Assembly: GCA_947166925.1 (NCBI GenBank)
Contig: CAMVGD010000015.1
Span: 1 to 34,116 of the forward strand
Length of the DNA stretch: 34,116 bases
DNA from: an uncultured Clostridia bacterium
Lineage (GTDB): Bacteria; Bacillota; Clostridia; Christensenellales; CAG-138
Direction: 5' to 3'
The translations under genes and the position numbers were made by a program. The notes beneath the pieces are model-generated. The model was not told where the DNA came from. It saw only the letters and a program-made list of their open reading frames with translations, and made no database searches. Below, piece by piece: positions 4-19,017 of the stretch; positions within the stretch are counted from its first letter, which is position 1; each line of letters starts with the position of its first letter.

Positions 4-204
4 CTACTCCGTGGGCGGCGCAGTCGGCGGCGTTGTTGGAGGTGCCGTCGGTCCTTCACTCGGCGGTGCAGGCGGATCTTCGCTCGGCGAAGAAGAGGGT
101 TCCGTCAAAGCGGTTGGCTCCGGTTCGTCTCCTTCCGCGATCGCCAGCACCGGCGTCAATGCCAGTATCAGTGCCAGAATCCATGCAAATACTCTCTGTT
201 TCAT
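4..204 (-). CDS. Small secreted Pro/Thr/Ser-rich peptide (66 aa)
   Basis: Sixty-six residues: a signal peptide (basic start MKQR, hydrophobic core about residues 7-21, likely cleavage after AIA) followed by a low-complexity tail of Pro, Thr, Ser and Glu with APPT-like repeats. A GAGG ribosome-binding site lies about 9 bases before the ATG, and the gene begins 22 bases after the ABC ATPase stop, so it is probably the last cistron seen of that operon. The in-frame TAG falls at 4-6, right at the window edge. No LPXTG motif or membrane anchor is visible. Such tails often serve as wall-spanning linkers, so this could be the 5' remnant of a longer surface protein broken by a stop. I do not recognise a family. 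Confidence 0.55.
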   Translation of the reverse strand: MKQRVFAWILALILALTPVLAIAEGDEPEPTALTEPSSSPSEDPPAPPSEGPTAPPTTPPTAPPTE

Positions 205-226
205 ACCGTTATCCTCAATTTCTGTG

Positions 227-865
227 TTATAGCATCGTCATCACGCCTGCGTCCATCTCGCAGACCGTGTCGCAAAGGACCTCGATGTCCGCAATGTTGT
301 GGCTCGCAAGGAGGATCGTCCGACCGTCGGTCGCAAGCGATTTGAACAGCTCGCGCATTTCGGCGACGCCGTTCTTATCAAGGCCGTTCATCGGCTCGTC
401 AAGGATCATCAAGGACGGATCCTCCATGATCGCCTGCGCAATGCCGAGCCGCTGCCGCATGCCGAGACTGTACTTTCCGACGGGTTTAGAGCTCATCGGG
501 TCGAGCCCCACGCGGCGGATCGTGTCGGCTATCTGCTTTAGATTGATCTTGCGCTTCAGCGAAGCAAGGATCTCGAGGTTTTTCAGTCCCGAGAGCTGCG
601 GCAGAAAACCCGGCGTTTCGATGATCAGCCCGATGTCCTCGGGAAAATCGACGTCCTTTCCGATCTGCTTGCCGTTCACAAGAACCTTGCCGCTTGTCGG
701 CTGCAAGAATCCGCAGATGCACTTAAACATGACGGTCTTGCCGCTGCCGTTGTTGCCGACGACGCCATGGATCTTTCCCGCCTCAAAGTTGCGGTTGATC
801 CCCTTCAAGACCGTGTCCTGTCCGAACACTTTGATAAGATCGTGTACTTCAATTGCGTTTGCCAT
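227..865 (-). CDS. ABC transporter ATPase, BcrA/LanF-like
   Basis: Cytoplasmic ATPase of an ABC exporter, 212 residues. Visible motifs are Walker A GNNGSGKT (37-44), signature YSLGMRQR (132-139), Walker B LMILDEP (152-158) and the switch histidine H189. Where most ABC proteins have a Q-loop glutamine, this one reads IIETPGFLP with E83. That glutamate 'E-loop' is known from the bacitracin (BcrA) and lantibiotic self-protection (LanF) group. I start at the ATG at 865 because AAGGAG sits 7 bases upstream; the longer upstream reading frame has no ribosome-binding site and does not resemble an ABC protein. The preceding permease stops 11 bases upstream, so the two genes form one transporter. The substrate is unknown; export of an antimicrobial peptide or envelope-active compound is an inference from the subfamily. 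Confidence 0.9.
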   Translation of the reverse strand: MANAIEVHDLIKVFGQDTVLKGINRNFEAGKIHGVVGNNGSGKTVMFKCICGFLQPTSGKVLVNGKQIGKDVDFPEDIGLIIETPGFLPQLSGLKNLEILASLKRKINLKQIADTIRRVGLDPMSSKPVGKYSLGMRQRLGIAQAIMEDPSLMILDEPMNGLDKNGVAEMRELFKSLATDGRTILLASHNIADIEVLCDTVCEMDAGVMTML

Positions 866-876
866 AGCGTTTCTCC

Positions 877-2625
877 TTAAGTGTTTTCCGTGCCGAGGAA
901 CATAAAGTTGTATCGTCGAATCGCACGAAGAATCATAAACATTAATCCGGCAATGATAAGAGCAAAGATTGCAAATGTTTGCCACAGGCGAGGCAAAAGG
1001 TCATAGCCGAAATTGTGCATATGGTAGGTAGCGTGGTTCAATGGCGAAAGCCATCCTGTTAATACGTTCGCCTTATACATCAGTTCGTCCGGTAGATGAA
1101 GGATCTGCTTGAAAAGCTCCGGATTCAATAAGAATCCATAAAGCGAGAACCCGAAAGCCGCGGCGATACCTGCGCCTTTACCGAACTTGAGCTTGAAATA
1201 CAGCATCAGCAGCACAAGCGTCAACGTATATGCAAGCATCAAAAGAAAGATAATAAATGCACATTGATACGGACGTGACATTTCAAGCGTTTTCACAAGG
1301 GCAGGCAGGGCAACGGCTTTGCCTGCGCCGGAATAGCCGAGGATCGCCGCCGTCTCCGACCACATATTACCGATATAACTATTCTGTGCACAGATTACGG
1401 AGGTAGCCACGAAAATAAACAACATGTAGATTGTCGTTGCTGCCATAATGTAGAGAAGTTGCCCCCAAGCCCATGTACTTCGTTTCATTCGTACAAGGAA
1501 GTAGGGGACGCCCGCTCCCAGAAACGGAATATCTGCAAACAACAGAACCAATAAGAGCGAGATTAGCAGTACAGAGTTTGCATCGCCGAATGTCCATACA
1601 AACGGCTCGAATGCCTGCATTGCCGTTCCCATTTCATAGGCGAACGATGCCGCTTTATCCGAAAGCAAAAAACATAGGATAAACGCCAAAGCAAACGTGA
1701 GAATGATTCGCATATTGCCGCGCCACATCCGGAAGTTGTATCCTGTAACAGAAAGAACCTTATGCAGCGGAAGCGCTTTTCTCCGGACAGGTTTGCTGCG
1801 ACTGATCCGCTTTTCAATCGGGCGAGGTTTGAACAACTGCCGAAACCGGTGTTCGGACTCTCCGCCGCGTAGTTTGCGCTCTGCAATGATATAAAATGCA
1901 AGCAACAGGATCATTAGAATAACAGCAGTTAGGAATACTGCCGATTTTCCACCGAGCGGCCAGGCACCATTCAACGTCAGATAGTTTTTCGGATTCAGCA
2001 TGAATGCCTTACGGAAGTAGCGCTCTTGAAGAATAATCAAGACATAGTAAAGGATAAACGGTGCGGCATATGCAAGATAGATGTTCTCGGTAATGGAGGA
2101 TAACAACATCCCGACAAGCGCCCAGCATGCACCTTGTAAGAAGAACAGCAATGCTCGGAATGCGATCTCGCCAGATTTCGGTTCCACATAGTAATCAACA
2201 AGCGTTTCATGCGGCAATAGCAGTAGCGCGAATAATCCGTATGCAGCGAAGATTCCAATAACCAGAGATAATCCTCCGGAGAGTGCACAGCCAAGCTCTT
2301 TTCCAACGACATATCGCGTTACCGTTGTTCGTGGCAGATATGCTTTAATATAACCGGTTTTCACATCGTCCACGAACGATGAGGTATAAGGAATTGCAGC
2401 GAAAATAGGCGTCACCAACAAAATGATATCGCTTGACAATGCTTTGAGCAGCAATTCCTCATGAAACCCCATGGGACGGTACTGCGTTTCTGAGAAGAAC
2501 ACATCATACAGGTCTGAAAACGAAGCAAACAGCAGACACAGCAAGACCCCTCCTGTTGCAAACAGGAAGGTCTTGCTGAAGACTGCACGTTTACTATCAT
2601 CGGTTAGTGTATTGAATAAACGCAT
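877..2625 (-). CDS. Double-length ABC-2-like permease (582 aa)
   Basis: Polytopic membrane protein, the partner of the ATPase just downstream. It reads as two permease halves of about 250-280 residues joined by a strongly basic cytoplasmic linker (about residues 255-300, rich in Arg and Lys). Each half has roughly six hydrophobic segments, including about 22-40, 68-85, 110-137 and 160-200 in the first half, and 305-325, 355-375, 390-415, 450-480 and 545-570 in the second. BcrAB/LanFEG systems usually use separate E and G subunits, so the length suggests both are fused here. The ATG at 2625 has no good ribosome-binding site and lies 17 bases after the lipoprotein stop, which suggests translation by coupling. 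I am confident it is a membrane permease, less so of the exact family. Confidence 0.8.
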   Translation of the reverse strand: MRLFNTLTDDSKRAVFSKTFLFATGGVLLCLLFASFSDLYDVFFSETQYRPMGFHEELLLKALSSDIILLVTPIFAAIPYTSSFVDDVKTGYIKAYLPRTTVTRYVVGKELGCALSGGLSLVIGIFAAYGLFALLLLPHETLVDYYVEPKSGEIAFRALLFFLQGACWALVGMLLSSITENIYLAYAAPFILYYVLIILQERYFRKAFMLNPKNYLTLNGAWPLGGKSAVFLTAVILMILLLAFYIIAERKLRGGESEHRFRQLFKPRPIEKRISRSKPVRRKALPLHKVLSVTGYNFRMWRGNMRIILTFALAFILCFLLSDKAASFAYEMGTAMQAFEPFVWTFGDANSVLLISLLLVLLFADIPFLGAGVPYFLVRMKRSTWAWGQLLYIMAATTIYMLFIFVATSVICAQNSYIGNMWSETAAILGYSGAGKAVALPALVKTLEMSRPYQCAFIIFLLMLAYTLTLVLLMLYFKLKFGKGAGIAAAFGFSLYGFLLNPELFKQILHLPDELMYKANVLTGWLSPLNHATYHMHNFGYDLLPRLWQTFAIFALIIAGLMFMILRAIRRYNFMFLGTENT

Positions 2626-5903: not shown

Positions 5904-6471
5904 AGCCTTTTTCCTCACAAATCTGATAGACTGCCCGTCTGGCTCTTGTCAAGTTCTTGCGAACACTGCTTTCCTTGATACCAAGTAATTCCGCGATTTC
6001 TTTATCAGACATTTCAAGCAAATACTTATATTGCAGGATGTCTCTCAAACTGTCCGGAAGCGAAGAAAACGCTTCCTTTATCAATTCGACATCAATATGG
6101 AGCAAAGCACGATCTTCCGTCGATACACTGCTGTCTGGATATTCAAAATGATAATCGGCATCGTCAATGCTTCCGGCGATATGATTGCTTTTTGTCTTTT
6201 GTTTCTTCATGTAGTCTATGCACTTCCTCTTAATACACATAACGACGAAGAAGGGCAAGACGCGGCATGGAACCCTGTAAACTTTATCAAGGTTTCTGGC
6301 AAAGTAAACGAAAGTATCCTGTATTGCATCTTCAACTGCGGCATCATCATGAAGCATGGACTTTGCTTTTTGACGCATCGCCTCATAGTTTTCGATGTAC
6401 AGGTTACTTAAAAACTTGCGATCCGATTCATTCTCTATCATCGCGAGAATCAGCGGAATAATACAAATCAC
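5884..6471 (-). CDS. ECF-type sigma-70 family RNA polymerase sigma factor
   Basis: About 190 residues. Region 2 (about 18-90) carries the DAIQDTFVYFARNL helix and a C-terminal basic stretch. Region 4 (about 130-185) carries SLPDSLRDILQYKYLLEMS and the helix-turn-helix MSDKEIAELLGIKESSVRK, followed by LTRARR. It would direct polymerase to its own operon and perhaps to other envelope genes, controlled by the overlapping anti-sigma gene. The start is unclear. The GTG at 6471 lies directly on the AAGGAAGGTG ribosome-binding motif; an in-frame ATT four or five codons later has ideal spacing, and an ATG at codon 11 is also possible. A near-consensus promoter ends only about 15 bases upstream, which leaves almost no leader. 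Confidence 0.85.
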   Translation of the reverse strand: MICIIPLILAMIENESDRKFLSNLYIENYEAMRQKAKSMLHDDAAVEDAIQDTFVYFARNLDKVYRVPCRVLPFFVVMCIKRKCIDYMKKQKTKSNHIAGSIDDADYHFEYPDSSVSTEDRALLHIDVELIKEAFSSLPDSLRDILQYKYLLEMSDKEIAELLGIKESSVRKNLTRARRAVYQICEEKGYVEKAN

Positions 6472-6486
6472 CTTCCTTATGAGTAT

Positions 6487-6514
6487 ATTTTACTATGACT
6501 TTTAAGTTTGTCAA
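6487..6514 (-). promoter_or_regulatory. Sigma-A-like promoter for the sigma-factor operon
   Basis: On the minus strand TTGACA (6514-6509) is followed by a 16-base spacer and TAAAAT (6492-6487). Transcription would start near 6480, immediately before the AAGGAAGG ribosome-binding site, and the genes from the sigma factor to the left edge lie downstream in the same direction. Confidence 0.6.
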
Positions 6515-6668
6515 TGAGGATAATTTGTGTACATCAACGGCATCTAATCATTTGATAATCCCTGCAGAAGATACATCAGCATTTATCCGCTTTTTTTTCA
6601 ATTTCACAGTTAGCTTTGAAAATGTACTCTGTGAATTCGGCACATTAACTCTCCAGTGTTCTACTGAT

Positions 6669-7640
6669 CTATGCTTCAATGACATCTTTTGCAGATGCCT
6701 CATAGTATTGTTTCGTTAATTCTGACACAAGGAATTCGTCGTTCAGCAATTTAAGAAAAGCAATTTTAGATTTCTTTGTATCTAAACGTATCGTTTGACT
6801 ATCATCGCTATACTTGAATTTGTCATGTAGTGCTATATTGTTCTTTGAAAAATCAATGATAGTATTCCTTGGAATTCCCAGTTTGAAAACCGGAGAGCTC
6901 TTTGTAACTTTTGAGAGCTTTCTACAAAAAGATACATCATCCAATAAATCATATAACACTTCTGTGTCCTCAATTAGTCCTTTTTTCTCTATCTCTTTAA
7001 TTGATTCTGCTGCAGCTCCTGCTATTAACTGCGTAAAACCAAAACTGCGTTCTAAAGCTTTAAGATCAACAATAAATATATCGTTGCCAAGCCGTATCAT
7101 TTGAAAATCTGCATTTACTCGCAGAATATCCCCGCCATCAATCTTTACAAATCGTTCGGCATCTTTCTTTATACCCAGCAGGAAACTATCCCTCTTAATC
7201 AATGCCACAGGGTAATGCTTTTTATACAATAATACGCCTTTGTCCATTGACCCGATGTACACCAAGAAACCAAAAAGATTTGTTAAGCTATCTGTTTTGA
7301 AGTTAAACTTTTCAATTGAATTGATTTGGTTAATATCAAATTGCGCAAACAATTCCATTTCATCCGGTAGCTCTTTATAATCATATAAGTATAACGTATT
7401 GACCTGTTCATCTGCAGTAGAAAGAGGACGAATTTCAAGATAATCGTTAGTTACAATTGTTTGAATAAGGGCTTTTTCGTATAAGTCCTCCAATTCAGAA
7501 GCAGTCAATTGACTGTCTAAATCTGCGAGTTTCAGATAGTATTGTCCCTCCTCTTTCATAACAAGCAGAAGTTCAAGAACAGGATTATCTGAAATTATTG
7601 CTAATAATTCCTCTTTGATTGTTTCAATATCTTTATTCAT
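6669..7640 (-). CDS. kwaB: Kiwa anti-phage protein KwaB (DUF4868 family)
   Basis: A 323-residue soluble protein with no signal peptide or membrane helix, the usual length of KwaB. It shows the DUF4868 pattern: an alpha/beta N-terminal half with DYKELPDE, then a central region FGFLVYIGSMDKGVLLYKKH and IKRDSFLLGI leading to a FVKIDGGDILRVNADFQMI stretch. The C-terminal half is helical and ends with KSKIAFLKLLNDEFLVSELT. Kiwa is a known two-gene phage-defence system in which KwaB works with membrane-bound KwaA. The match rests on this pattern together with the gene pair. The ATG follows GGAG, and the gene overlaps the end of kwaA by 8 bases, implying coupled translation. Some DUF4868 proteins occur outside Kiwa, so a homology search would be useful. 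Confidence 0.78.
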   Translation of the reverse strand: MNKDIETIKEELLAIISDNPVLELLLVMKEEGQYYLKLADLDSQLTASELEDLYEKALIQTIVTNDYLEIRPLSTADEQVNTLYLYDYKELPDEMELFAQFDINQINSIEKFNFKTDSLTNLFGFLVYIGSMDKGVLLYKKHYPVALIKRDSFLLGIKKDAERFVKIDGGDILRVNADFQMIRLGNDIFIVDLKALERSFGFTQLIAGAAAESIKEIEKKGLIEDTEVLYDLLDDVSFCRKLSKVTKSSPVFKLGIPRNTIIDFSKNNIALHDKFKYSDDSQTIRLDTKKSKIAFLKLLNDEFLVSELTKQYYEASAKDVIEA

Positions 7641-8244
7641 GTGTTTGCTCCTTTCCTGCTTTTTTTGCTATCCAAACATGTTGATCAAGAAAACGCCATG
7701 CAATCGAATCCCCCGCATATAATCTGTCCCTTGTTATCAGGATGATCTCTCTTAACTCAGGGTGGTTTGAAATAGTCACTCTATATAATCGATATCCCAT
7801 TAGAGCCAGAGTGGGATTCCCATAATACAAATCCATTTTTACAAATATGCAGCCAATAACAATCAACAGAATAGCTAAAACAATAACAAAGCGTACTTCT
7901 GATAAACTAAAGCTAATCAATGGAATAATGTAAGTAGTTAGAAAGGTTAGATATTCGTAGTTTTGGTTTTCTACGCTTTCAATTTTATAGGAGGCATGAA
8001 CTGCTCCTCTCCATTCGTAATCTAGTCTTTTACACATCAATAATCCAATAACTGATAGCAAAAGAGAGACAACAGCCAACCAATTTCTTTTGATAAGCTC
8101 TTTGAATCCGATGAATGTTGCTTCTTTACTAAAAGAAATAGGAATATCAATAGTTATAAAGAAAATCAAAAGGAATAATAGCCATAAGGAAATAAAATAA
8201 AACCGTAGTTTATACATTGTATTCCCTTTTCTTGAGTGCCCCAT
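7633..8244 (-). CDS. kwaA: Kiwa anti-phage membrane protein KwaA
   Basis: A 203-residue protein with four predicted transmembrane helices (about 15-34, 54-71, 98-115 and 118-137) and a C-terminal cytoplasmic tail that begins with YGNPTLALMGYRLYRV, a conserved-looking KwaA feature. In known Kiwa systems KwaA forms the membrane part of a complex with KwaB that responds to phage attack at the envelope. I kept the ATG at 8244 because AAGGAGG lies 5 bases upstream; the internal ATG at residue 10 has a weaker site. It is the first gene of the pair, transcribed away from the NACHT gene, with a 395-base AT-rich gap between them. Identification rests on topology, the NP..GY motif and the adjacent DUF4868 gene. 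Confidence 0.75.
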   Translation of the reverse strand: MGHSRKGNTMYKLRFYFISLWLLFLLIFFITIDIPISFSKEATFIGFKELIKRNWLAVVSLLLSVIGLLMCKRLDYEWRGAVHASYKIESVENQNYEYLTFLTTYIIPLISFSLSEVRFVIVLAILLIVIGCIFVKMDLYYGNPTLALMGYRLYRVTISNHPELREIILITRDRLYAGDSIAWRFLDQHVWIAKKAGKEQTHE

Positions 8245-8639
8245 AAAAACCTCCTTGTTGTCGATTAGTTACATATAATATAAACACTATATAGCTGAGG
8301 ATTATCCTTTGAGAAAATAATATATTATTATAATAAAGATTTACAATGGATATAAAGTGTCTTTGAAGTGTTAATAACAATGAAAAGCAATGGGGAATTG
8401 TTTTATGAACAATAAACACAACAAGTTAATTGATTATGGCTTTTAAATGGAGGTGGGATTTTGAACAATACTGGATAATTATCAAATATGCTTTATATGC
8501 TGAGAAGTTTCTCGAGAGTAATGGATGGTCCATTACTTATCTGCAAGGAGCCTTTGACCATTTCGTTTTTTGCAGAGGATTCTTTGTTTTCGTTTTTTCT
8601 ATTCTGATGATTTTTAAGGTGTATTGTTGGAGGTGTAGT
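8245..8639 (+). other. Divergent AT-rich intergenic region
   Basis: This 395-base gap separates the kwaA start from the NACHT gene start. It holds no gene I can support. The frame upstream of the NACHT start stays open from 8430, and a GGAGGTGGG site at 8449-8456 precedes only a five-codon frame. An AT-rich palindromic tract (8316-8337) carries candidate promoter hexamers. The spacing leaves a leader of about 300 bases on the NACHT transcript. Confidence 0.6.
8316..8334. promoter_or_regulatory. Possible divergent -10 elements in an AT palindrome
   Basis: An exact 14-base palindrome (8316-8329) is followed by overlapping TATAAT hexamers on the plus strand (8329-8334) and the minus strand (8332-8327). 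The -35 hexamers are weak on both sides. It is the best candidate for divergent promoters of kwaAB and the NACHT gene, or for a shared operator. Confidence 0.3.
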
Positions 8640-11600
8640 ATGTTTAAAGAAGAAACATTTGTAAAAGATTTTATATGGGGCATGAGCGTTCTTTCTGCAT
8701 ATTTTTCCTATAATAATAAGGAAAATCTTCAGGACGTTAATATATTCGCCGAGTCTTTTGTTCGTGATTTGATGAACATTCTATTCGATAAAAAACTATG
8801 CCGTGCAGTTGATCCTCGCAACGCAGGATATGATTTGATTGATATTGAATCAAAAATTGTTGTTCAAGTAACAAGTAATTGTAGACCTGAAAAAATCAAC
8901 GAGACGTTAGGCAGTCTCGACAGATCCGTTGACAAACGAGCTCGGCTTCTTGATGAAAAACTGAAAAAAATAAATGAAGTTAATAAAGAACTGAAAGAAC
9001 TAGAAGATAAACAGAAAAACATTCGTATGGAGGGGGAAGTCTGGAAGGATTCAGTTGACAGATTACAAAATGAGGCGAATGCCAAGAGGGGAACCATTGT
9101 AAGAATACAAGAAGAGATCGAGAATTTAGCTCCAGATATTAGTGGCTTCACAGTTCTTTTTCTCTTTTTAAAAAAAGATGCAGATCCTGTAAAAAATGAT
9201 AAGGATCACGGTTATAAAAAATCGCGTAATATTCATTTTTCGCAGTCAAATAGTATCTATTGTATTGATGATTTGGTTAGACTTGTCAACAATCTGTCCT
9301 TAAATGAGGATAGTACGAAGATTGATTCATTAATAAAATTTATGAATAAGCAAGAGACTATCTTTTGCCATCATAATAGATTATTCGAAGATAAAGTGGG
9401 CACAGTTATACGAGAATATGCAAATCATTTCGCTGCGCCACTGTTTCTACATCAGTATGAAAAGAACACGGAAGTGACATTACAAAACACCTATATTGAG
9501 CCTAAGTTTAATATTGTTAAAGGATCTAAACCGGATTCTGACTCTATCGTTTCGCTGTTGGATAACTTTGTTTATGACAATAGAAAAGTAAGATTGCTCT
9601 TTATCGACGGAGATGCAGCTATAGGAAAAACATCATTAATGTCTTGGCTCTGTTATCACTATCAACAAGAAGATGCTGCTGGTAAATCTGTCTTTTTAAA
9701 CAGAAGATTGGTAATCATCAGATTACGGGATATAACAATTAAAGGAGTAGACTCATTAGAAAACTGTAAATGCATTTTTGATTATCTTAATATTGAACCG
9801 GAGGAGTTTGAAGCTCGATATTCTTCCAGTATTATTGTGTTAGAAGGTGCTGATGAGTTGAGTTCATTTGGTTTTGATGATGGAATAACCATAGAACAAT
9901 TCATTTCTGCTGCAGAAAAAGTTTTTTCAAATCACAAACTTGTTATAACCAGCAGACCGCATTTCATAAATACCGAGCGCTTCTGTTCTGCTTCTTCTCC
10001 GTTCGAATTTGAGCATGTTTGCATCAGTCATTTTTCATCTAAAGATCGTGAGGAGTGGATAAGAAGGTATAAGCGTCATGGAGGTGCAATAACACAAAGC
10101 ACTGAAGAATACATAAAGAGCATTACTGATAATGATGCTGATGGAGTTGCAGATACGCCATTGGCATTGTATTTGTTATCTGCTTGTAAAGTAAGTGAAA
10201 AATTAAAAGACAACAAATGGTCCTTATACTACGAAATCTTTCATAACGCAATCAAAAATACTACATATAATAATACGTTCCAGGGGGGTGAACATACTGC
10301 TTTTAGAAACCAAGATGTTGCCGAAAAAGTCTACGAGACTGTTGGCGCTATAGCTTTTTCTATGTATAAGCACTCGTATAAAGAGCAATACTTTGTAGAT
10401 TCAAAGGAACTTAACTCTATTGCAAATGAAATCAGCACAGAGAAGATCAGTGCTGAGATTTTAAAAAAGACCTGTGTGTTGTATGCATATTGGAAGGAAA
10501 GTGAATCTAGGGGCATTCTTGAGTTTTACCACAACAATATTAGAGACTATTTTTTGTGTGAGTACATTTACAAGGTTTTTTCAGCAATAGATTTTTCTGA
10601 TGATAAAGATAACATTGCTGAACAACTTATTACAACCGGATGTAAGGTGTTTCAACACGAGGTGTTTGCCAAAAAAACGTGGGCACAGACTTTTATGTTT
10701 TTTTATTATCGGATAAAAGCAGAAAAAGAAAACCCTCATAGTGGAAGTTTAGCCGAAATAAAAGTTGCAGATTATTTTCCGCACATCATTTTTAAACTAT
10801 TCCAAGGGAATCAATTGTGGCGGTATGAGTATTCTACTACTTCCTATAATACAATAAAGGCAACTGCACTTAATTTTGCTTTATTTATTAAGGTATGGGC
10901 GATTGCCCTTTCATCGGATGACAAGGTGATATCTTTTACTGATTCTGACCACGGCTCTTTTTGGCGCGAGAAGGGCGTATTCACCGACTGGGTTGATTTG
11001 TATACAGATTCGATAGAGATAGCGAACAATATTCACGTTTCATTCGGAAGCAATACAAGTTATAGCAACATGCTATTTAACAATCTATCTATGGATACAG
11101 CATGCTTCGAAAGAGTTAACATGGATAATTCCGCCTTTTTTAATGTGGATTTGAGTCACGCATCTTTTGGGTATTCTAAATTGAAAAAAGTTGATTTTTC
11201 ACAGTCCTCGCTATGTGGTAGTCGCGATAATCCAAAATCTGCGCATTTTTGTCATGCAGAGTTAGTCGACGTATCATTTATAAAGGCAAAACTGAGCGGT
11301 GTTGACTTTTCAGAAGCTACTCTGGAGAATGTCGATTTTTCAGGAGCAGACATCAAAAATACATCTTTTATTCATGCGTCAATAAGTAATGTGACTTGGC
11401 CGAATAGTAAAAATGCGCTTAGTTCAACAGAGTTTAAACATACAAAGGTGTCTAAAACAAAAATAAAAAAGATGGATTTAACTCAAACACAGTTAAACGA
11501 AGCAGAGTTTACTAATTGCATTTTTGAGGATGTTCTTTTTCCAGATTTAGTATGTGTCACGTTTGAAAATTGCAATTTGAAAAATTGTAGTTTCAAAGAC

Positions 11601-11867
11601 ACAACTAATTGTTGCTTCAAGGGCTCAACACTAACGGGTGATTTGAATTGGAGTTCCCACACATTAAAAAATGTAGAGTTCACAAATTCAAGTATTGAAA
11701 GTATTGTATTTAAGTTTTCTCGCTTGGAACAGGTCGTTTTTAATAGATGTTCAGTAAACGAAATACAACTCTATAATGCAAACCTATGCGCTAATTCATT
11801 CATGAGTATTAGAGCAACAAGAGCAAAACTCATGCAACCAAATACGGTACACATAAGTGAAGTGTGA
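8640..11867 (+). CDS. SMEK-like / NACHT NTPase / pentapeptide-repeat protein (1,075 aa)
   Basis: Probable phage-defence NTPase. Residues 1-85 resemble the N-terminal part of a SMEK domain (DVNIFAESFVRDLMNILF, YDLIDIESKIVVQVTSN). Residues about 88-165 form a long charged coiled coil, and about 166-230 (GFTVLFLFLKK... IYCIDDLVRLV) look like the rest of the SMEK domain. The NACHT-type NTPase follows: Walker A GDAAIGKT (324-331), Walker B VLEGADEL (400-407), sensor VITSRP (435-440), then helical and winged-helix-like regions to about 800. Residues 814-1,060 are pentapeptide-like repeats, A(D/N)LXX style, a likely right-handed beta-helix. The ATG at 8640 follows GGAGGTG; the open frame back to 8430 has no ribosome-binding site. 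Bacterial NACHT proteins guard against phage, but the domain order and output activity here are not ones I can match. Confidence 0.85.
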   Translation: MFKEETFVKDFIWGMSVLSAYFSYNNKENLQDVNIFAESFVRDLMNILFDKKLCRAVDPRNAGYDLIDIESKIVVQVTSNCRPEKINETLGSLDRSVDKRARLLDEKLKKINEVNKELKELEDKQKNIRMEGEVWKDSVDRLQNEANAKRGTIVRIQEEIENLAPDISGFTVLFLFLKKDADPVKNDKDHGYKKSRNIHFSQSNSIYCIDDLVRLVNNLSLNEDSTKIDSLIKFMNKQETIFCHHNRLFEDKVGTVIREYANHFAAPLFLHQYEKNTEVTLQNTYIEPKFNIVKGSKPDSDSIVSLLDNFVYDNRKVRLLFIDGDAAIGKTSLMSWLCYHYQQEDAAGKSVFLNRRLVIIRLRDITIKGVDSLENCKCIFDYLNIEPEEFEARYSSSIIVLEGADELSSFGFDDGITIEQFISAAEKVFSNHKLVITSRPHFINTERFCSASSPFEFEHVCISHFSSKDREEWIRRYKRHGGAITQSTEEYIKSITDNDADGVADTPLALYLLSACKVSEKLKDNKWSLYYEIFHNAIKNTTYNNTFQGGEHTAFRNQDVAEKVYETVGAIAFSMYKHSYKEQYFVDSKELNSIANEISTEKISAEILKKTCVLYAYWKESESRGILEFYHNNIRDYFLCEYIYKVFSAIDFSDDKDNIAEQLITTGCKVFQHEVFAKKTWAQTFMFFYYRIKAEKENPHSGSLAEIKVADYFPHIIFKLFQGNQLWRYEYSTTSYNTIKATALNFALFIKVWAIALSSDDKVISFTDSDHGSFWREKGVFTDWVDLYTDSIEIANNIHVSFGSNTSYSNMLFNNLSMDTACFERVNMDNSAFFNVDLSHASFGYSKLKKVDFSQSSLCGSRDNPKSAHFCHAELVDVSFIKAKLSGVDFSEATLENVDFSGADIKNTSFIHASISNVTWPNSKNALSSTEFKHTKVSKTKIKKMDLTQTQLNEAEFTNCIFEDVLFPDLVCVTFENCNLKNCSFKDTTNCCFKGSTLTGDLNWSSHTLKNVEFTNSSIESIVFKFSRLEQVVFNRCSVNEIQLYNANLCANSFMSIRATRAKLMQPNTVHISEV
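11079..11832 (+). repeat. Pentapeptide-repeat array (protein-level)
   Basis: About 50 degenerate five-residue units (for example NVDFS, GADIK, NTSFI, NVEFT) with Phe, Leu, Ile or Val at the central position. The DNA copies are diverged and not identical, so this is an old array. A few units are interrupted by short loops, notably near 11,221 and 11,400. Confidence 0.75.
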
Positions 11868-12074
11868 TATTGGGTAAAGGCAATGTAATTATGATAATAA
11901 TGTTGATAAAAACAATTTGTCAAATCAATAATAGCGAATAGGAACTTTCAGTGCATTGATGGTTAAAGGGTTTATGATCCTTTAGATGACCTGAAAACAG
12001 ATTTGGTCAATGGCAGATATGGGCTTCATTCGTAAAACTAATACATAAATGGGCAGAAATAAAGCAATCTAGCG

Positions 12075-12113: not shown

Positions 12114-12830
12114 TTAATTTGATGATTTTAGAACACAGGTGACAACGACCTTCTTTGGCGCGTGTCCGGTGTAGTAGAAGGGATAGCAGGTTGTAAGCAT
12201 CAGATGCTTTCCTTCAATGGTAGGGATTCGGAGATCCTCGTTGCTTTCAAGAATCTCTGTTGATTCGATCACATAGGTGTAAATCGTTCCGTTTGGCATA
12301 GTCACCTTGATGGTTTCACCATAGGTCACATCTTTCAGAATCTGTAAATGATTTCGGTTGCGGTGACCATAGACAACACACACACCTTCTTCACCGGGTG
12401 AAGCAGAAGTATTCAGCCAGCCGGGTGTTTTTTCGAGCGTTGCTTCATCAACGGATGGTGCGATCGTGATGTCCTTTCCGTGAAGCGTCAGAACAAATGC
12501 AGCTCCGTGCGGAACAGATACCTGCGGTGCAGCGGTTGGTTCGGAGGGCGGGCGTGATGTGGGGGATACGATAACGGGTTCATCAATCACAGGAAATTCG
12601 GGCCAATCCCTGGATTCGAGAGTTGCAGATGGTTCAGGCGCAACTGTACTGCTCGACGTCGGGATTACGATCTCAATGATCTCGGCTTCAAGCGTCGGTT
12701 CCAGTGTCGCGGTCGGCACCGTGGTTTCGATTGCCTGTTCTGCAAGCAGCGAGATCTTGTCACCGAGCAGGAACGGCAATATGAGAATTGCGATTGCAAG
12801 AATAGCAAGGATAATGATGTGTTTCTTCAT
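12114..12830 (-). CDS. Sortase, class D-like, with Lys at the catalytic Arg position
   Basis: Membrane-anchored transpeptidase, 238 residues. It has an N-terminal transmembrane anchor (about 4-23), a long Pro/Thr/Ser-rich spacer (about 35-105) and the sortase beta-barrel (about 107-238). Catalytic His is H156 in VVYGHRNRN and catalytic Cys is C215 in LTTCYPF. Sortases normally complete the triad with Arg about 10-12 residues later (the APERY or APKRF type); here the segment reads TGHAPKKVVV, so Lys226/Lys227 replaces it. AAAGGA lies before the ATG. It closes the transfer operon, 15 bases after the NlpC/P60 gene. In ICEs such sortases anchor adhesins on the donor surface; no clear LPXTG substrate is seen in this window. 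Confidence 0.85.
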   Translation of the reverse strand: MKKHIIILAILAIAILILPFLLGDKISLLAEQAIETTVPTATLEPTLEAEIIEIVIPTSSSTVAPEPSATLESRDWPEFPVIDEPVIVSPTSRPPSEPTAAPQVSVPHGAAFVLTLHGKDITIAPSVDEATLEKTPGWLNTSASPGEEGVCVVYGHRNRNHLQILKDVTYGETIKVTMPNGTIYTYVIESTEILESNEDLRIPTIEGKHLMLTTCYPFYYTGHAPKKVVVTCVLKSSN

Positions 12831-12845
12831 GTGATTTCCTTTCGC

Positions 12846-15065
12846 TTATTGGTACGGTCTTCCGAACATAATGATCGGATAATTCTTTGTCTGCCATAGA
12901 TCACGCACGACGACGCAGCCCTTGCTGCTGGATGCTTCAACCACCTTTCCATCGCCGACATAGATGCCGACGTGGTGGATCTCCTTCCAACGGTGGCAGC
13001 CCTCACATTTTTTGTTGACCCAAAAGACAAGGTCGCCGGGTTCAAGCTCCGACCATGCGACAAGCAATCCTCGGTCATGGCAGTATTTCGCCTGTCCTGC
13101 GGCGTTGGTGTACATGTGATCGCCAAGCTCCGGATCGACCTCACGGATTGCCCAATACGCAAGACCGGAACAGTCGAACTTCGAACTGCCTTTCGCACCC
13201 CATACATAGGGACAGCCGAGCTTTGTCAGCGCAGCACGAACAACGTCGGCTCCTTTGCTGTTAGAAGGCAGGTGGCTGATAATCTCGGTATAGTCCGCAC
13301 CGCCGAGCAGATCGACGCCGATCAGCGCGGCATAGTATTTGGTATATGCCGGGGACATCATCTCCGCCAAAAGCTGCATCTGTGATTCATCGAAACGATA
13401 GTATTCCGCAGCTTCCCGATACGTCATTGATCGCTGATGCACATTGACGATCAACTGCGTGACCGTTTCCGGCTCCGGCATGTTGCCGTCTTCGTCGGGC
13501 GTTGGGGTTGGAGCATTCTCCGGGACTACCTCGTGAAGTTCATAGGTGAAGCCAACCGTGTTCATGACAGAGAACACTTCTCGCAATCGCTGTTCGCATT
13601 CATCGTCCGGGACAAGGATGATGATCGGATTCTCACCTGTGGTGGACAGGACGGAGTAGACAGCGAGTACATCGATCCAGTTGTTGACCGTAGCGGAATC
13701 GCCGTCATTGTTGTCACCTCTATAGACCACCTCGAACTCGTCGTGATCGATTTCTTTTTCGAACTTCTTGATCCGTTTATCAATCGCATCCTTGTAAGAT
13801 TGGTCGATCCTTGTAATGATCTCGGTCATGGTCGGTCCCTCCGGTGATGCGTCGTTCGACCAGAATAGTCCGAAGCATACGCAGATGATCGCGGCTACAA
13901 GGGCAATGACAAGAATAATGACGACCGCAACCCAACCGCCAGCGGCGATTGCAGCGACAAGGGCTTTGATCGCGGCAATGATCGCTTTTACGGCAGCTTG
14001 GATCGCTTTTGCGGTCATCTCCGCCGCCTTTTGCGCAGCTTTAGCCGCTTTGACGGCAACTTCCTTCGCAACCTTCGCCGCTTTTTCAGCCGCCTTTGCT
14101 GCCTTCTCGCCGACTTTTTCTGCTGTTTTTACGGATTTCTCTGCGGTTTTGACGGATCGCTCGGCGGTCTTGACCGACTTTTCGGTTGTTTTTACCGTTT
14201 TCTCGGTTGTTTTAACGGTTCCTTTCGCGCCTTGTTTGACCGATGAAACAGATTTCTGACCTGTAGCATTCGTCTTCTGTACCGGGCGCTGATCGGAACG
14301 GAACAGTCGTTGATTGTTCTCGACAGAGTGCGATTGCTGCTCCGTCTGTTGAAGCGCATGGTGATCTCCTCCTTTTTGCGTGGTGTATTCATGCTGCGGC
14401 TTTACCGCAGGACTGGATTCCGTAGGTGTAGAACTATCCGGCTGATACTCTTGCGTCGTTTCCTTTGGTTCGGTTCGCTGCTTCTGCAAGATCTCTGCTT
14501 TCTGCTGCGGAGTAATCTCATGCGGCGCAGGGCGAGAAGATCGAAAGGATAGCTCATCCGATTGCTTTGGTTCAAGCTGATTAAACCGCTGCTGAAACAC
14601 ATCGACTTTTTCTTTCGGTGTGATCTCGTGACCGGAGGTATCGTATCGCGGTTCGGATTGAACCGAAGGATTGCTTGACAGTTGGTATGTTTCAGCTGTT
14701 TGCGGCTGATCGGGTGTCCGGGGCTCCGTTCTCGGGTGATCCTGTTCCAACCTTCTCGCTTCCTTCTGTTCGCGTCGATTCTCCAGATCTTCCACCTTGT
14801 CACGGATCTTGTCTTCAACCTTTTCTTTGACTTTGTTTACGGCTTTCTTTGTGCCGGAATATGCAACGGAAGCATCCTCATAGGTGTACTGCTCAGATTT
14901 CTGCGCAGCGTAATCGGACTCGGATTCGTAGCGTTCGTCTGCGGAAACGGTCTGCTCATCCACCTTGCAATAGCCGGTTTTCATGTGCCGGGGAAGCTTT
15001 CGAGAAGCGTCTGCCGCCTTTGGAGCTTTCATATGTTGGCGTTCTTTGACTTTTTTCTTTTCCAT
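12846..15065 (-). CDS. CD1108-like transfer protein with NlpC/P60 wall hydrolase domain
   Basis: Conjugation protein (739 residues) that would open peptidoglycan locally for the mating channel. The N-terminal 280 residues are polar, charged and probably disordered. They lead to a Lys/Thr/Ala repeat (about 285-320) and a long Ala/Lys helix, then a transmembrane helix at about 377-400 (GGWVAVVIILVIALVAAIIC). The extracellular part contains a roughly 200-residue linker domain and, from about 605, an NlpC/P60 domain with catalytic Cys in KFDCSG (about 631) and catalytic His in HHVGIYVG (about 697). The ATG at 15065 has GGAGG 6 bases upstream, so I prefer it to the ATG at 15077. It follows virB4 by 45 bases, as in related Clostridia ICEs. 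Confidence 0.85.
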   Translation of the reverse strand: MEKKKVKERQHMKAPKAADASRKLPRHMKTGYCKVDEQTVSADERYESESDYAAQKSEQYTYEDASVAYSGTKKAVNKVKEKVEDKIRDKVEDLENRREQKEARRLEQDHPRTEPRTPDQPQTAETYQLSSNPSVQSEPRYDTSGHEITPKEKVDVFQQRFNQLEPKQSDELSFRSSRPAPHEITPQQKAEILQKQRTEPKETTQEYQPDSSTPTESSPAVKPQHEYTTQKGGDHHALQQTEQQSHSVENNQRLFRSDQRPVQKTNATGQKSVSSVKQGAKGTVKTTEKTVKTTEKSVKTAERSVKTAEKSVKTAEKVGEKAAKAAEKAAKVAKEVAVKAAKAAQKAAEMTAKAIQAAVKAIIAAIKALVAAIAAGGWVAVVIILVIALVAAIICVCFGLFWSNDASPEGPTMTEIITRIDQSYKDAIDKRIKKFEKEIDHDEFEVVYRGDNNDGDSATVNNWIDVLAVYSVLSTTGENPIIILVPDDECEQRLREVFSVMNTVGFTYELHEVVPENAPTPTPDEDGNMPEPETVTQLIVNVHQRSMTYREAAEYYRFDESQMQLLAEMMSPAYTKYYAALIGVDLLGGADYTEIISHLPSNSKGADVVRAALTKLGCPYVWGAKGSSKFDCSGLAYWAIREVDPELGDHMYTNAAGQAKYCHDRGLLVAWSELEPGDLVFWVNKKCEGCHRWKEIHHVGIYVGDGKVVEASSSKGCVVVRDLWQTKNYPIIMFGRPYQ
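14109..14213 (-). repeat. Five 21-base repeats encoding KT(T/A)E(K/R)(S/T)V
   Basis: Five tandem heptapeptide units inside the NlpC/P60 transfer protein, continuing into a degenerate Ala/Lys-rich helix toward the membrane segment. Heptad spacing suggests an extended helix or coiled coil on the cytoplasmic side. Copy number may vary between strains. Confidence 0.7.
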
Positions 15066-15110
15066 GGGTTCCTCCAAAAGAAGGGGAGCGGGAATACCGC
15101 CCCCTTGTTC

Positions 15111-17444
15111 TTATTCCTCGATCGTTTCCTTCGGCTTGGTTGTCATGACCTTATAGAGCTTGGTATCCTTCGGGAAGTGATTTTCGAACGGTACGATATT
15201 CCCCGCGCATTTCAAAAGCCCCTTACCGGCATCGGCATTGGTCACATACGAAAGCTGTGTTTCCGAGATGCCGAGAAGCTTTGCAAGCTCGATCCGATCG
15301 GTTGCCGCCTGATTCAAAAGCGTGATAAACTCGCTGTTGGCAAGCATCGTCCGCGCGGTGTGCGACTGCAGCAGATCCTCGATGTTCTGCGAAATGCCGG
15401 TATAGCAGGCGTTGTGCTTCCGTGCGCGTTTCCACTGCTCGAACAGGAAATTGGAACTGTATTCGTTGGCAAACAGCAGATAGATCTCGTCGATGAACAC
15501 ATAGGTCGGACGCCCTTTCTTCTTGTTTCGCACGATCCGGTTGTAGATGGAATCGAGAACAACGAGCATACCGACCGTTTTCAATGCTTTGCCGAGATCG
15601 CGGATGTCGTAGCAGATTAGGCTGCTTTCGGTATTGACATTGGTGGGCTTTGCGAAGGTGTCGAGAGAACCGTCCGTAAAGAGCTCAATCGCAAGCGCAA
15701 CGTCCTTTGCTTCCGGTTCGGGCTGTTTCAGAAGCTCCTTGTGGAAATCCTTGAGCGTCGGAACCTTGCCGGTGCAGCCGCGCTTGATAAACGGGCGATA
15801 CACGATCTGCGTACAGCGGTCGATCAGCGACTTTTCCTTTGCAGAAAGCTTTCCGGAACCGACAAGCTGTTCGCAGAGCGAGAGGATAAACTCGCTCTTC
15901 AAAAGCACCGGGTTCTCTGAATCTGCATATTCAGATTCCATATCCATTGCGTTGATGTGGTTCTTGGAATCGGCAGCGATATTGATGACCTCGCCGCCGA
16001 GTGCACGGACAAGTCGATCGTATTCGCGTTCCGGGTCGATGATAATGACATCACCTTGATTTCGGAGAACAAGCTGGATGATCTCGTCCTTTGCGAAGAA
16101 CGACTTACCGGAGCCGGATACGCCGAGAACAAAGCCGTTGCCGTTCAAAAGTGAACTTCGGTTGACAAACAGCAGGTTCTTGCTGATTGCGTTCTGGCCA
16201 CAGTAGATGCCTTCCGGGTGATTGATCTCCTGTGCCTGAAACGGCATGAAGACCGCAGCGGATTCCGTGGTCAGCGTTCGCAGAGCATTGATTTTTCGTA
16301 GCCCATATGGGAGCGTGGTATTCAGCCCGTCAAGCTGCTGATATTTCAGCGTTTGAAACTGACAGATATGCTTTCGCGCAACGGAGAGCAGCGCTTCCGT
16401 GTCCGTGTCCAACTGCTTCTTGCTGTCCGCCACATGTACGAGCGTGACTGTCACGAACATCATGCGCTGATCACGGGATGTGAGATCGTCCAAGAACTCT
16501 TTTGATTCCTTGCGCTGCTGTTCGAGATCATACGGAACGACCGCGGAAAAATTGTTGTTTTTGTTCTGCTTGCGCTGCCAGTTCGTGATCTCCGTTTCCG
16601 TACCGAGCAGCTTGCGTTCGACTTCCTTGACCGCTTCATCCGTAGGGATCGGAATAATGTCGATCGAAAGCATAAGGTTTCGGTTGATGTCGCAAAGTTC
16701 AGACACCATGGAATCCTTGAGAAACGACGGGAACTCCTGCAGATACAGGACGCGCGCATACTTCTTGCCGATCCTGATATGGTCGCTTTTGACCGTCATG
16801 CTGTCGGGACAGATGGCATCTGCGAACGAGTGACCGCGCTTCATGAGATCCTTCAAATCGAAGTGATAGCTTTCCTCCTGTCCGATGCGGAAGAAGTCGT
16901 GGAACACCCGCATCCGTTCCGTGACGTCGGTTTCATACAGCTTGGAGGACAGACTTGCGAAGCGGGAGGCAAGCTCCGTGTAGACGCGGGAGAAAAAGGT
17001 TTTTGCTTCCTCGTAGGATTTCTTAATGACCGATACCGTGATGTACTTTTCCTGCAAGATTCCATTGCCGCGGATTGCCGCGTCCATAATCATGCTGTTG
17101 TATTCGTCCCGGTATTCGTCAAGACCGTCATCCGCGTGTTTGATCAGGTTCCGCGCAAAACTGCTTTTTGTCATGCGGCGGTTATTGATCGTGATCTTGG
17201 TGGTTGCACCGATCTCAAGAGCGTTCAACAGTTCGCAGTATTGCAGAAACATTGCAAGCTGATCGTCCCGTGCCGCAACGGAGTAATTGACGTCCGTGAA
17301 TCGGAACGTGCGTGAGAACTTGTTGCCGACCTGAAAGGTTCCGTCCTTCCAGATCTTCTTGATCGGGATAGTATCCTGTACAGAAGAAGGAACCTTGAAC
17401 GGTTCCTTCTCAGACTTCAGTATTTGATTGAGTGTTTTAATCAA
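15111..17444 (-). CDS. virB4: VirB4-family conjugation ATPase
   Basis: ATPase powering the type IV secretion channel, 777 residues, full length for Firmicutes VirB4/TraE proteins. Residues 1-400 form the N-terminal VirB4 domain. The motor domain has Walker A GVSGSGKS (441-448), DVIIIDPEREYDRL shortly after, and Walker B RPTYVFIDEIYLLF (about 650-665) with the following helices. It probably sits on the cytoplasmic face of the channel with PrgI and VirB6. The start is TTG at 17444, with AAGGAGGTG 7 bases upstream. The first 8 bases overlap the end of prgI (TTGATTAA), implying translational coupling. Confidence 0.95.
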   Translation of the reverse strand: MIKTLNQILKSEKEPFKVPSSVQDTIPIKKIWKDGTFQVGNKFSRTFRFTDVNYSVAARDDQLAMFLQYCELLNALEIGATTKITINNRRMTKSSFARNLIKHADDGLDEYRDEYNSMIMDAAIRGNGILQEKYITVSVIKKSYEEAKTFFSRVYTELASRFASLSSKLYETDVTERMRVFHDFFRIGQEESYHFDLKDLMKRGHSFADAICPDSMTVKSDHIRIGKKYARVLYLQEFPSFLKDSMVSELCDINRNLMLSIDIIPIPTDEAVKEVERKLLGTETEITNWQRKQNKNNNFSAVVPYDLEQQRKESKEFLDDLTSRDQRMMFVTVTLVHVADSKKQLDTDTEALLSVARKHICQFQTLKYQQLDGLNTTLPYGLRKINALRTLTTESAAVFMPFQAQEINHPEGIYCGQNAISKNLLFVNRSSLLNGNGFVLGVSGSGKSFFAKDEIIQLVLRNQGDVIIIDPEREYDRLVRALGGEVINIAADSKNHINAMDMESEYADSENPVLLKSEFILSLCEQLVGSGKLSAKEKSLIDRCTQIVYRPFIKRGCTGKVPTLKDFHKELLKQPEPEAKDVALAIELFTDGSLDTFAKPTNVNTESSLICYDIRDLGKALKTVGMLVVLDSIYNRIVRNKKKGRPTYVFIDEIYLLFANEYSSNFLFEQWKRARKHNACYTGISQNIEDLLQSHTARTMLANSEFITLLNQAATDRIELAKLLGISETQLSYVTNADAGKGLLKCAGNIVPFENHFPKDTKLYKVMTTKPKETIEE

Positions 17445-17790
17445 CGCGCAGCACCTCCTTCAGTTTTCCGCTTGACAGGATCGAAGCGTACAGATTCGTG
17501 GGCTTCGAGGCCAGTTGCTTCGGTATGAGAAACTCGGACTGAATGTATGCCCGGATGAACTGTTCGGCGGTCATGCCGTGATATTTCACAAAGCCGAGGA
17601 TCGCAAACGGGAACGCAGCAACGACGCACAGCCAACTGACGGTTTCCGTGCCGAGTACATTCCGAAGTCCGAAGTACACGCCGAGGGCAACGCCGACCGC
17701 GAGTACCGCGAAGATGAACTGACGCAAAGACAAACCCATGAAGATCGACTCCTGATAGTCGCGGATCTCTTTGTTGATTTTGATTTCCAA
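17437..17790 (-). CDS. prgI: PrgI-family transfer protein
   Basis: A 117-residue membrane protein with two hydrophobic helices (about 23-42 and 51-69) and a conserved N-terminal pattern, EIKINKEIRDYQESIFMGLS, typical of PrgI. PrgI is the VirB3-like inner-membrane part of Gram-positive conjugation channels and is nearly always next to VirB4, as here. The start is TTG at 17790 with AAAGGAG upstream. The neighbour on the 5' side is a fic gene instead of virB6, so the usual order is interrupted. Confidence 0.92.
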   Translation of the reverse strand: MEIKINKEIRDYQESIFMGLSLRQFIFAVLAVGVALGVYFGLRNVLGTETVSWLCVVAAFPFAILGFVKYHGMTAEQFIRAYIQSEFLIPKQLASKPTNLYASILSSGKLKEVLRVD

Positions 17791-17828
17791 AAGGGAACTC
17801 CTTTCTGTTTTAGATTTACTTGGAACAT

Positions 17829-17877: not shown

Positions 17878-19017
17878 TTAAGTTCCTTCTCGCAAGATAT
17901 CGAGATAAGCTTGATAAGCAAACACACGATTTCTTGCAGCATTGGTTGTTTCGCGAAGGATGCCGAGATTGATCAGCTTTCGCACAGCGGAAGCAGTCGT
18001 ATTATAACTGATACCCAATGCCTGAGAGGTCTTTTTGATGTCAATGATCGGATACTGTTCCACATAGTCAAATAAACTACGGACATGATCCTGAGTTCGT
18101 TTTGATTGCGGAAGGATCATCAGATTCCGATCATGGAGTTCAGACAGCGCGCGGATGGATTCCATGGCGTCCTTTGCGGCGGCGTAGACCGCTTCCAAGA
18201 AGAAACGGACCCATTGCTCATAGTTCCCGGAACGACGCACTTCGCTGATTCGATCATAGTATTCCACCTGATTCTTTTTCAGGAAATAAGACACATAGAG
18301 AACCGGTTTATCCAGCAACCCCTGCTCCATCAGATACAGTAAGATCAACAGCCGACCGATACGGCCGTTGCCGTCCAAAAACGGATGGATCGTTTCAAAC
18401 TGATAATGAATCAGAGCAGCGCGAACAAGGGAATCCAAATTGCTCTCCGCATGGAGGTACTTCTCCAGGTCGGACAACGCTTCGGTCATATCGGTTACAT
18501 TCGGCGGGACAAACCGTGCATCCTTCAATGCGCAACCGCGAGGGCCGATCCAGTTCTGCGATCTTCTGAATTCGCCGGGGTCCTTATCCTCGCCACGAAC
18601 ACCTTGCAACAGTCTTTCATGCGTTTCTCTCAAGAGACGATTGCAAAGGGGAAGTTCGTTGAGCCGTTCAATGGCGTATTGTGCAGCAGTGATATAGTTC
18701 ACCACATCTCCGACATCCAGGTTTATATTTCCGTCGGCATTTGGATCGAGAATGTCGTCAAGCGTGCACTGCGTGCCCTCTATTTGAGAGGTCATCAGCG
18801 CTTCTTTGCGAACGTACATCGAGACAAACAGGTTTGTGCTCGGAATCAGGTTTGCCGCAATATTGAGCTTTGCCAATTCTTTGTTGGCATCGATCAAAAG
18901 CTGTAAGCAGTCGCTATCCAGCGCCAACGGAGGATTTGGAGGGAGAGGAGAAGGACGAAAGGATTGATAAGCTGCTTCTCCGGTCATATTTGTAACGTAT
19001 GCTCCGGCACGATTCAT
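17878..19017 (-). CDS. fic: Fic-domain AMP-transferase-like protein with winged helix
   Basis: A 379-residue Fic protein of the Fic_N/class II type. An N-terminal inhibitory motif T76-SQI-E80-G81 matches (S/T)xxxE(G/N), which blocks the active site in cis. The catalytic motif HPFLDGNGRIGR (211-222) is intact, so nucleotide transfer to a protein hydroxyl, usually AMP, is expected. A C-terminal winged helix (about 315-370, VEQYPIIDIKKTSQALGIS) suggests DNA binding, perhaps autoregulation. The ATG follows AAGGAG. The gene sits between virB6 and prgI and has its own promoter and a terminator, so it behaves as an inserted accessory unit. The target protein is unknown. No separate antitoxin gene is needed because the inhibitory helix is built in. 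Confidence 0.9.
   Translation of the reverse strand: MNRAGAYVTNMTGEAAYQSFRPSPLPPNPPLALDSDCLQLLIDANKELAKLNIAANLIPSTNLFVSMYVRKEALMTSQIEGTQCTLDDILDPNADGNINLDVGDVVNYITAAQYAIERLNELPLCNRLLRETHERLLQGVRGEDKDPGEFRRSQNWIGPRGCALKDARFVPPNVTDMTEALSDLEKYLHAESNLDSLVRAALIHYQFETIHPFLDGNGRIGRLLILLYLMEQGLLDKPVLYVSYFLKKNQVEYYDRISEVRRSGNYEQWVRFFLEAVYAAAKDAMESIRALSELHDRNLMILPQSKRTQDHVRSLFDYVEQYPIIDIKKTSQALGISYNTTASAVRKLINLGILRETTNAARNRVFAYQAYLDILREGT

Follow-up and report, generated by a model that had tools for sequence, protein, structure and literature searches.

A SMEK-NACHT-pentapeptide protein on a clostridial conjugative element as a candidate nuclease-armed STAND defence switch

Architecture of the SMEK-NACHT-pentapeptide gene

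The window analysed here, a stretch of 34,116 nucleotides from an uncultured gut Clostridia bacterium (contig CAMVGD010000015.1), carries a plus-strand gene that runs from an ATG at 8640 to a stop at 11867 and encodes a 1075 aa protein, P0001, which combines an N-terminal SMEK domain, a central NACHT NTPase and a C-terminal tail of pentapeptide repeats. We propose, from its sequence relationships, that P0001 is probably a single-protein, nuclease-armed STAND defence switch with an unusual pentapeptide sensor. The reading frame contains no internal stops, and GGAGG stands directly before the ATG. A longer open reading frame (ORF) would be possible from an in-frame TTG at 8430, but the frame upstream of the ATG is not kept, because the single relative returned by a search of genome contigs with P0001 has a one-base indel there. 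This relative, L004, lies in MAG-R050 and is the copy of the surrounding cassette found in genome G007. Its protein is 98% identical to P0001, and the ratio of non-synonymous to synonymous differences between the two genes (pN/pS) is 0.26, so the gene has been kept as a protein. Amino-acid changes relative to L004 are concentrated in window positions 8640-9330, within the SMEK part and its insert, and no bin between 9600 and 10799 shows a difference.

The N-terminus scores above the curated cut-offs of both available SMEK models, which places P0001 in the SMEK family and bears out the sequence-only reading of this DNA on that point. Pfam SMEK_N (PF21941) matches residues 15-96 (E 3.4e-17, 63.1 bits, cut-off 27), and NCBIfam SMEK_N (NF033859) gives E 2.6e-18 and 65.7 bits (cut-off 30). 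The Pfam match covers model positions 6-89 of 140, the remainder being split off by an insert. The first part of the domain, of restriction-endonuclease (REase) type, comprises residues 1-96 (8640..8927, plus strand) and scores 63.7 bits over residues 2-96 with a leave-out profile of 17 SMEK sequences, from which P0001 and its near-duplicate L004 were excluded. It is followed by the insert of about 75 residues (97-171; 8928..9152) and by the last part of the domain (residues 172-218; 9153..9293), a weak, co-linear match to profile positions 107-150. This second part scores 4.2 bits where the best among 200 shuffles reached 4.3, so its assignment follows from its order and from alignment A7. 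The insert is present in L004 and absent from the seven more distant SMEK rows of A7; with 33 of its 75 residues charged it is perhaps coiled-coil-like, as judged by composition only.

Pfam NACHT matches residues 318-480 (9591..10079, plus strand) with E 3e-6, narrowly passing its cut-off (27.6 bits vs 26.7), and an intact Walker A motif, GDAAIGKT, lies at residue 324. The model score and the motif together identify P0001 as a NACHT/STAND protein.

The earlier count of about 50 C-terminal pentapeptide units agrees with the best five-residue tiling, which spans residues 742-1051 with 49 matched units and scores 29, against a best of 9 among 500 shuffles of the protein. The start of the tiling is loose, and the repeats proper occupy approximately residues 817-1051 (11088..11792, plus strand), holding 47 units at most. 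Pfam Pentapeptide_4 matches in five stretches (E 6.9e-27) and Pfam Pentapeptide with E 4.9e-18, the best stretches falling at residues 873-922.

SMEK as a nuclease-related, modular domain

When residues 1-310 were compared with the Protein Data Bank by phmmer, one chain fell below E 0.01, namely 26bh (E 2e-4), whose entry names it as the Mrr domain of Mrr-APAZ, a short Argonaute (pAgo) from Kordia jejudonensis; the next match (E 0.03) covered the coiled-coil-like residues. When 19 SMEK proteins, P0001 included, were combined into a profile, it matched the same chain with E 3e-45 over 166 of 225 positions, and no other chain up to E 10. Homology to this solved chain makes SMEK a putative member of the PD-(D/E)XK-like class, the REase fold of the chain being taken from its deposited name. 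Residues E38, D65, Q76 and K85 of P0001 are identical in all 19 SMEK rows (18 without the near-duplicate L004), with a D-Q spacing of 11 in 19/19 and a Q-K spacing of 9 in 18/19, and the four residues are also present in the Kordia chain in the profile alignment. PADLOC assigns the SMEK part to the Ago-associated REase in four relatives (L012, L021, L027 and L032), though not in L022 or P0001. In passages of two papers (PMC10810196, PMC12205087), SMEK is one of the nuclease domains listed for short Argonautes, and weak collateral DNA cleavage is reported for the Kordia SMEK-APAZ/Ago pair (PMC12205087); a passage of a third (PMC10318531) describes a restriction endonuclease that had been wrongly annotated as SMEK. 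As judged from these comparisons, SMEK is homologous to a nuclease domain, that of the Kordia short-Argonaute system. The sequence-only reading had recognised no nuclease and expected a new output, a claim that is not supported, because SMEK is related to the Mrr nuclease domain and already appears in the literature as a nuclease effector. Its suggestion that SMEK is the output or a partner-binding module survives as an N-terminal output domain, with no support for an unknown or partner-binding module.

Genome searches with the Pfam model returned SMEK matches above cut-off at the level of the phylum (2 of 398 genomes), the order (5 of 395) and the class (3 of 341); these three sets all include the window genome and may overlap otherwise, and they hold eight SMEK-positive genomes in total, G007, which came from the protein search, not being counted. 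A further match in the class set (L040) was set aside as below cut-off, the long ORFs overlying it starting, by reading, like a sensor and a transporter protein. SMEK and a STAND-like part share one chain in three of the eight genomes: that of the window, G1075 (L021) and G941 (L022). The L021 protein, its end cut by the contig, has Walker motifs followed by WD40 repeats and an Aga_REase match at E 6e-17. In G1173 a SMEK remnant has a transposase-like ORF on its upstream side and, directly downstream, a STAND-like ORF of 1472 aa; the SMEK match is partial (27.8 bits vs 27, positions 64-138 of 140) and was not counted as an intact fusion, and the locus is possibly a SMEK-STAND gene broken by insertion. 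The transposase/integrase-like ORF occupies positions 6456-7882 of locus L024, and the truncated SMEK tail just downstream of it runs into the 1472-aa ORF. In G1158 and G643 SMEK adjoins an ORF whose translation reads as ATPase-like, and G352 and G611 carry other or lone SMEK proteins.

Eighteen plasmid regions, picked for diversity from the search matches and one of them without annotation, extend this picture. SMEK-STAND proteins occur in two (L027 and L032), an ABC-3C, DUF2326 or AAA-family partner accompanies SMEK in 6/18, four regions lie on IncX1-replicon plasmids (one copy being shortened by an insertion sequence) and the other six are of other kinds. The protein of L027, from Staphylococcus equorum, matches PADLOC Avs2 at E 5e-250 and Aga_REase at E 3e-21, with NPHP3_N above its cut-off and NACHT just below; that of L032, from an Agrobacterium plasmid, matches Aga_REase at E 2.5e-49 and Avs2 at E 1.5e-21. 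On these domain matches, SMEK is a modular domain that heads several STAND-like proteins. The IncX1 plasmids of Escherichia, Klebsiella and Salmonella carry a lone 307-aa SMEK between a topoisomerase gene and conjugation genes.

Individual examples of other SMEK genes have neighbours that hint at a defence role: Qat (L030), a DpnII restriction-modification system (L015), a DUF4365 gene with a methyltransferase (L014), a split type IIG-like restriction-modification pair (L022) and a viperin-like radical SAM gene (L032). No neighbour suggestive of defence was seen at L027, which adjoins sulfur-metabolism genes and a recombinase, or at the IncX1 copies, whose neighbours are topoisomerase and conjugation genes. 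The radical SAM gene of L032 (7314-8348), with its viperin-like PADLOC match (E 1e-13), lies downstream of the SMEK-NACHT-like gene.

Comparison of the parts by phmmer within a set of eight proteins including P0001, too small a set for the order of events, gave different nearest relatives for the two halves. L004 aside, L027 and L021 come nearest to P0001 in the SMEK part, and L011 of genome G644 comes nearest in the NACHT and pentapeptide parts (E 1e-12 and 2e-9); the other SMEK-STAND proteins of the set have no significant match to the NACHT part. P0001 therefore looks shuffled at the sequence level, with SMEK most like that of other SMEK-STAND proteins and the NACHT-pentapeptide half most like L011, which suggests that effector and NACHT-sensor half have recombined. 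Among 391 genomes of the class, two contained a match to the NACHT part: the window genome and the one that carries L011. A query built from alignment A4 matched 18 of 299 genomes, but among the matches listed all except the window's covered positions 552-785 of 845, the repeat end, and the search is uninformative on NACHT-pentapeptide fusions.

Relatives of the whole protein are rare. Among the window's own genome and 60 related ones, 3/61 contained a match, one of the three in the repeats only. Parts of P0001 were matched in 51 plasmid records, none over 80% of the protein, and no plasmid matched the NACHT part at E 0.01. Viral contigs held no relative for the queries P0001, A4, L012 and L005, and one locus, 100% identical, for the query L034; phage records had no match for P0001 (E 1e-5) or L012 (E 0.01).

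A Kiwa-bearing cargo cassette in a conjugative element

As the sequence-only reading had proposed, the gene adjoins a Kiwa pair and lies in a conjugative element. The minus-strand genes at 6669..7640 and 7633..8244 match KwaB (NCBIfam NF041623, E 1.7e-92) and KwaA (NF041622, E 5.6e-62) above the curated cut-offs; these two neighbours are the Kiwa components, and the SMEK-NACHT gene itself is none. The pair is divergent from the SMEK-NACHT gene across a gap of 395 bases. Conjugation genes elsewhere in the window include a VirB4 of the CD1110 family (E 6e-302) and a VirD4 of the CD1115 family (E 4e-153). Among them, on the minus strand at 17878-19017, stands a gene for a Fic-type protein adenylyltransferase that matches SoFic in PADLOC (E 7e-117) and falls below the cut-off of the NCBIfam SoFic model.

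Kiwa and the SMEK-NACHT gene form a cargo cassette whose approximate boundaries, 6600..12000, come from a 200-base identity profile. The window is 98% identical to G007, a genome of another species, over 6669-11867. Bins compared with L004 are 93.5-100% identical from 6.6 to 12.0 kb, vs 67.5-97% in the left flank and 78.5-95.5% in the right flank (the last six-base bin omitted). Synonymous differences per site follow the same division, at 0.037 for the SMEK-NACHT gene, 0.059 for KwaB and 0.083 for KwaA, vs 0.41 for VirB4. The G+C content is 0.32-0.37 over 6-12 kb vs 0.48-0.55 from 12 kb on, with 3-6 kb likewise low (0.37-0.42). A third species, represented by G006, has the same element, matching window positions 83-2592 and 12150-17805, with different genes in the slot. 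That slot (7825-10236 of locus L058) is filled by two genes, one of the TIGR04141 family (E 1e-144) and the other with a weak TPR match, neither of which PADLOC matches. Of 23 genomes of the genus, two hold the full-length cassette, two others have a 29-base match only, and three carry the VirB4 gene. The identity step is consistent with cassette exchange, and the comparison supports a view of the cassette as mobile cargo, with Kiwa as its known defence unit.

A predicted switch, its alternatives and known systems

In the proposed switch, the pentapeptide tail, presumably a beta-helix, would sense a factor that comes from the invader or a host factor that is guarded. Nucleotide exchange and oligomerisation of the NACHT NTPase would follow, as expected of the STAND family and following the scheme given in passages of PMC12931631 and PMC12169576. 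Oligomerisation would gather the N-terminal SMEK domains, as putative Mrr-type REase-like nucleases, and the coiled-coil-like insert within the nuclease might help assembly. SMEK would then cut DNA non-specifically, so that phage spread is stopped by cell death or dormancy, by analogy with SMEK-APAZ/short Ago, nuclease-armed Avs and bNACHT systems. Passages of the literature report that nuclease effectors of Avs1-4 cause altruistic cell death (PMC12931631), and that the nuclease residue D48 is required in bNACHT25 and 32 (PMC12169576). The gene and Kiwa travel together as cargo of the conjugative element; they are transcribed divergently and would not have to act jointly. The tail, by its position, may be the sensor. 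The fuller version, in which the beta-helix is a genuine ligand sensor and the coiled-coil insert of the SMEK nuclease nucleates nuclease assembly, is a tentative conjecture that we think rather unlikely.

Several observations weigh against the proposal. The Walker B consensus is hhhhDG.(D/N)E, and the Walker B-like stretch of P0001, IIVLEGADEL, with LEGADE at residue 401, has E in place of the D found in L011, L021 and L022, so that the intact Walker B claimed from the sequence alone is only nearly right, while the claimed NACHT with Walker A stands. Few of the other SMEK-STAND proteins pass a Pfam P-loop cut-off: L027 alone does so, with NPHP3_N, and L021 (NACHT E 1.7e-4), L022 (E 0.0015) and L032 lie below the NACHT cut-off, L022 also having no standard Walker A by pattern and no PADLOC match. 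For P0001 itself PADLOC gives only a weak DndD match (residues 85-198, E 0.0018). The searches made found a single near-identical full-length relative, so the genomic neighbourhood is known from two copies of the one cassette.

The remaining contrary points concern SMEK, and they favour a rival reading, close to the partner-binding option of the sequence-only reading, in which the REase-type fold has lost catalysis and serves to bind DNA or a partner, while the output is something else. The position two residues after Q76, where the classical (D/E/Q)xK motif has its lysine, is T in P0001, and across the 19 SMEK rows it is T (16) or S (3) and never K; K85 lies nine residues past Q76. The pN/pS of the SMEK part is 0.54, vs 0.13 elsewhere in the gene, a difference that fits relaxed and adaptive change alike. 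The invariance of four polar residues, a lysine among them, in 19/19 rows would nevertheless be unexpected in a dead fold, and the Kordia SMEK-APAZ pair is reported, in part of PMC12205087, to cut DNA, if weakly. A SMEK active site can be inferred from the alignment, not asserted, and we consider the dead fold improbable, though the strongest of the alternatives.

A nuclease-armed switch could also serve competition between elements, attacking incoming plasmids or elements or stabilising its own element, instead of being directed at phages. The location of the P0001 gene on a conjugative element would suit such a role, as would the lone SMEK genes beside conjugation genes on IncX1 plasmids and the plasmid SMEK genes with an ABC-3C-type partner. 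Against it, two SMEK-STAND relatives match Avs2 models, and passages of PMC12931631 describe phage packaging proteins as what Avs1-4 recognise. We give this role slightly less credence than the dead fold.

That P0001 is an accessory or regulator of Kiwa in one three-gene system is very unlikely: the genes are divergent neighbours 395 bases apart and occur together in the window genome and in G007, but co-transfer within one cassette requires no common function, and no Kiwa gene appears in the annotations or ORF lists, which were not profile-searched, at L021 (cut by the contig end), L022, L027 and L032. Qnr and MfpA pentapeptide proteins act by DNA mimicry toward gyrase, and DNA mimics are strongly acidic. 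Weak matches to the tail from the NCBIfam models of Qnr and MfpA (for the Qnr family E 9e-9, 35 bits vs a cut-off of 240) and from QnrB1 chains (E ~1e-4) lend something to the idea of a DNA mimic titrating or guarding a DNA-binding protein such as gyrase; the tail is nearly neutral, however, with 27 acidic and 23 basic residues of 235 and a pI of 5.9, so simple mimicry is disfavoured and we rate the idea no higher than a Kiwa accessory.

The nuclease-armed STAND switch predicts that D65, Q76, K85 and the Walker A motif are required and that DNA is degraded upon triggering. Should the tail indeed do the sensing, what triggers it would be of general interest, and under the fuller version with the nucleating insert P0001 would represent a new sensor class together with a new gating of a collateral nuclease inside one polypeptide; our partial coverage of the literature found no test of a pentapeptide-type sensor in such a receptor.

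P0001 brings together the SMEK nuclease shared by short-Argonaute and ABC-3C systems, the receptors of the Avs and bNACHT kind, and pentapeptide repeats in conflict proteins. Passages of PMC8195603, PMC7159879 and PMC10853773, all from the Aravind group, describe predicted conflict systems whose multi-domain proteins have interchangeable parts, among them REase effectors, STAND NTPases and pentapeptide repeats, so the parts and logic are not new; those passages name neither SMEK nor the domain order of P0001, and no description of a SMEK-NACHT-pentapeptide protein was found in the passages searched, which cover the literature in part. The Kordia SMEK-APAZ/short Ago system has a homologous SMEK (Mrr) domain with the same four residues, but responds to guide RNA and target DNA by way of Ago, with no NACHT switch, according to part of PMC12205087. 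The ABC-3C protein of Priestia (L012) likewise begins with SMEK and has the Pfam CTD10 domain of ABC-3C systems, but belongs to a three-gene ABC-ATPase system. L011 shares the NACHT and pentapeptide parts and has another N-terminus in place of SMEK. In bNACHT25 and bNACHT32, which are bacterial NLR-like proteins, a PD-(D/E)XK effector also heads a NACHT protein (passages of PMC12169576); the C-terminus is a helical NCH1 and not pentapeptide. Avs2, as represented by L027, follows the same logic, with a SMEK-type REase N-terminus, a central STAND NTPase and a variable C-terminus, whereas P0001 has a pentapeptide C-terminus, an insert in SMEK and no PADLOC Avs2 match at E up to 1. Judged by these sequence comparisons, the architecture of P0001 is real, and is a variant of the nuclease-armed STAND receptors, with a predicted output that is not new.

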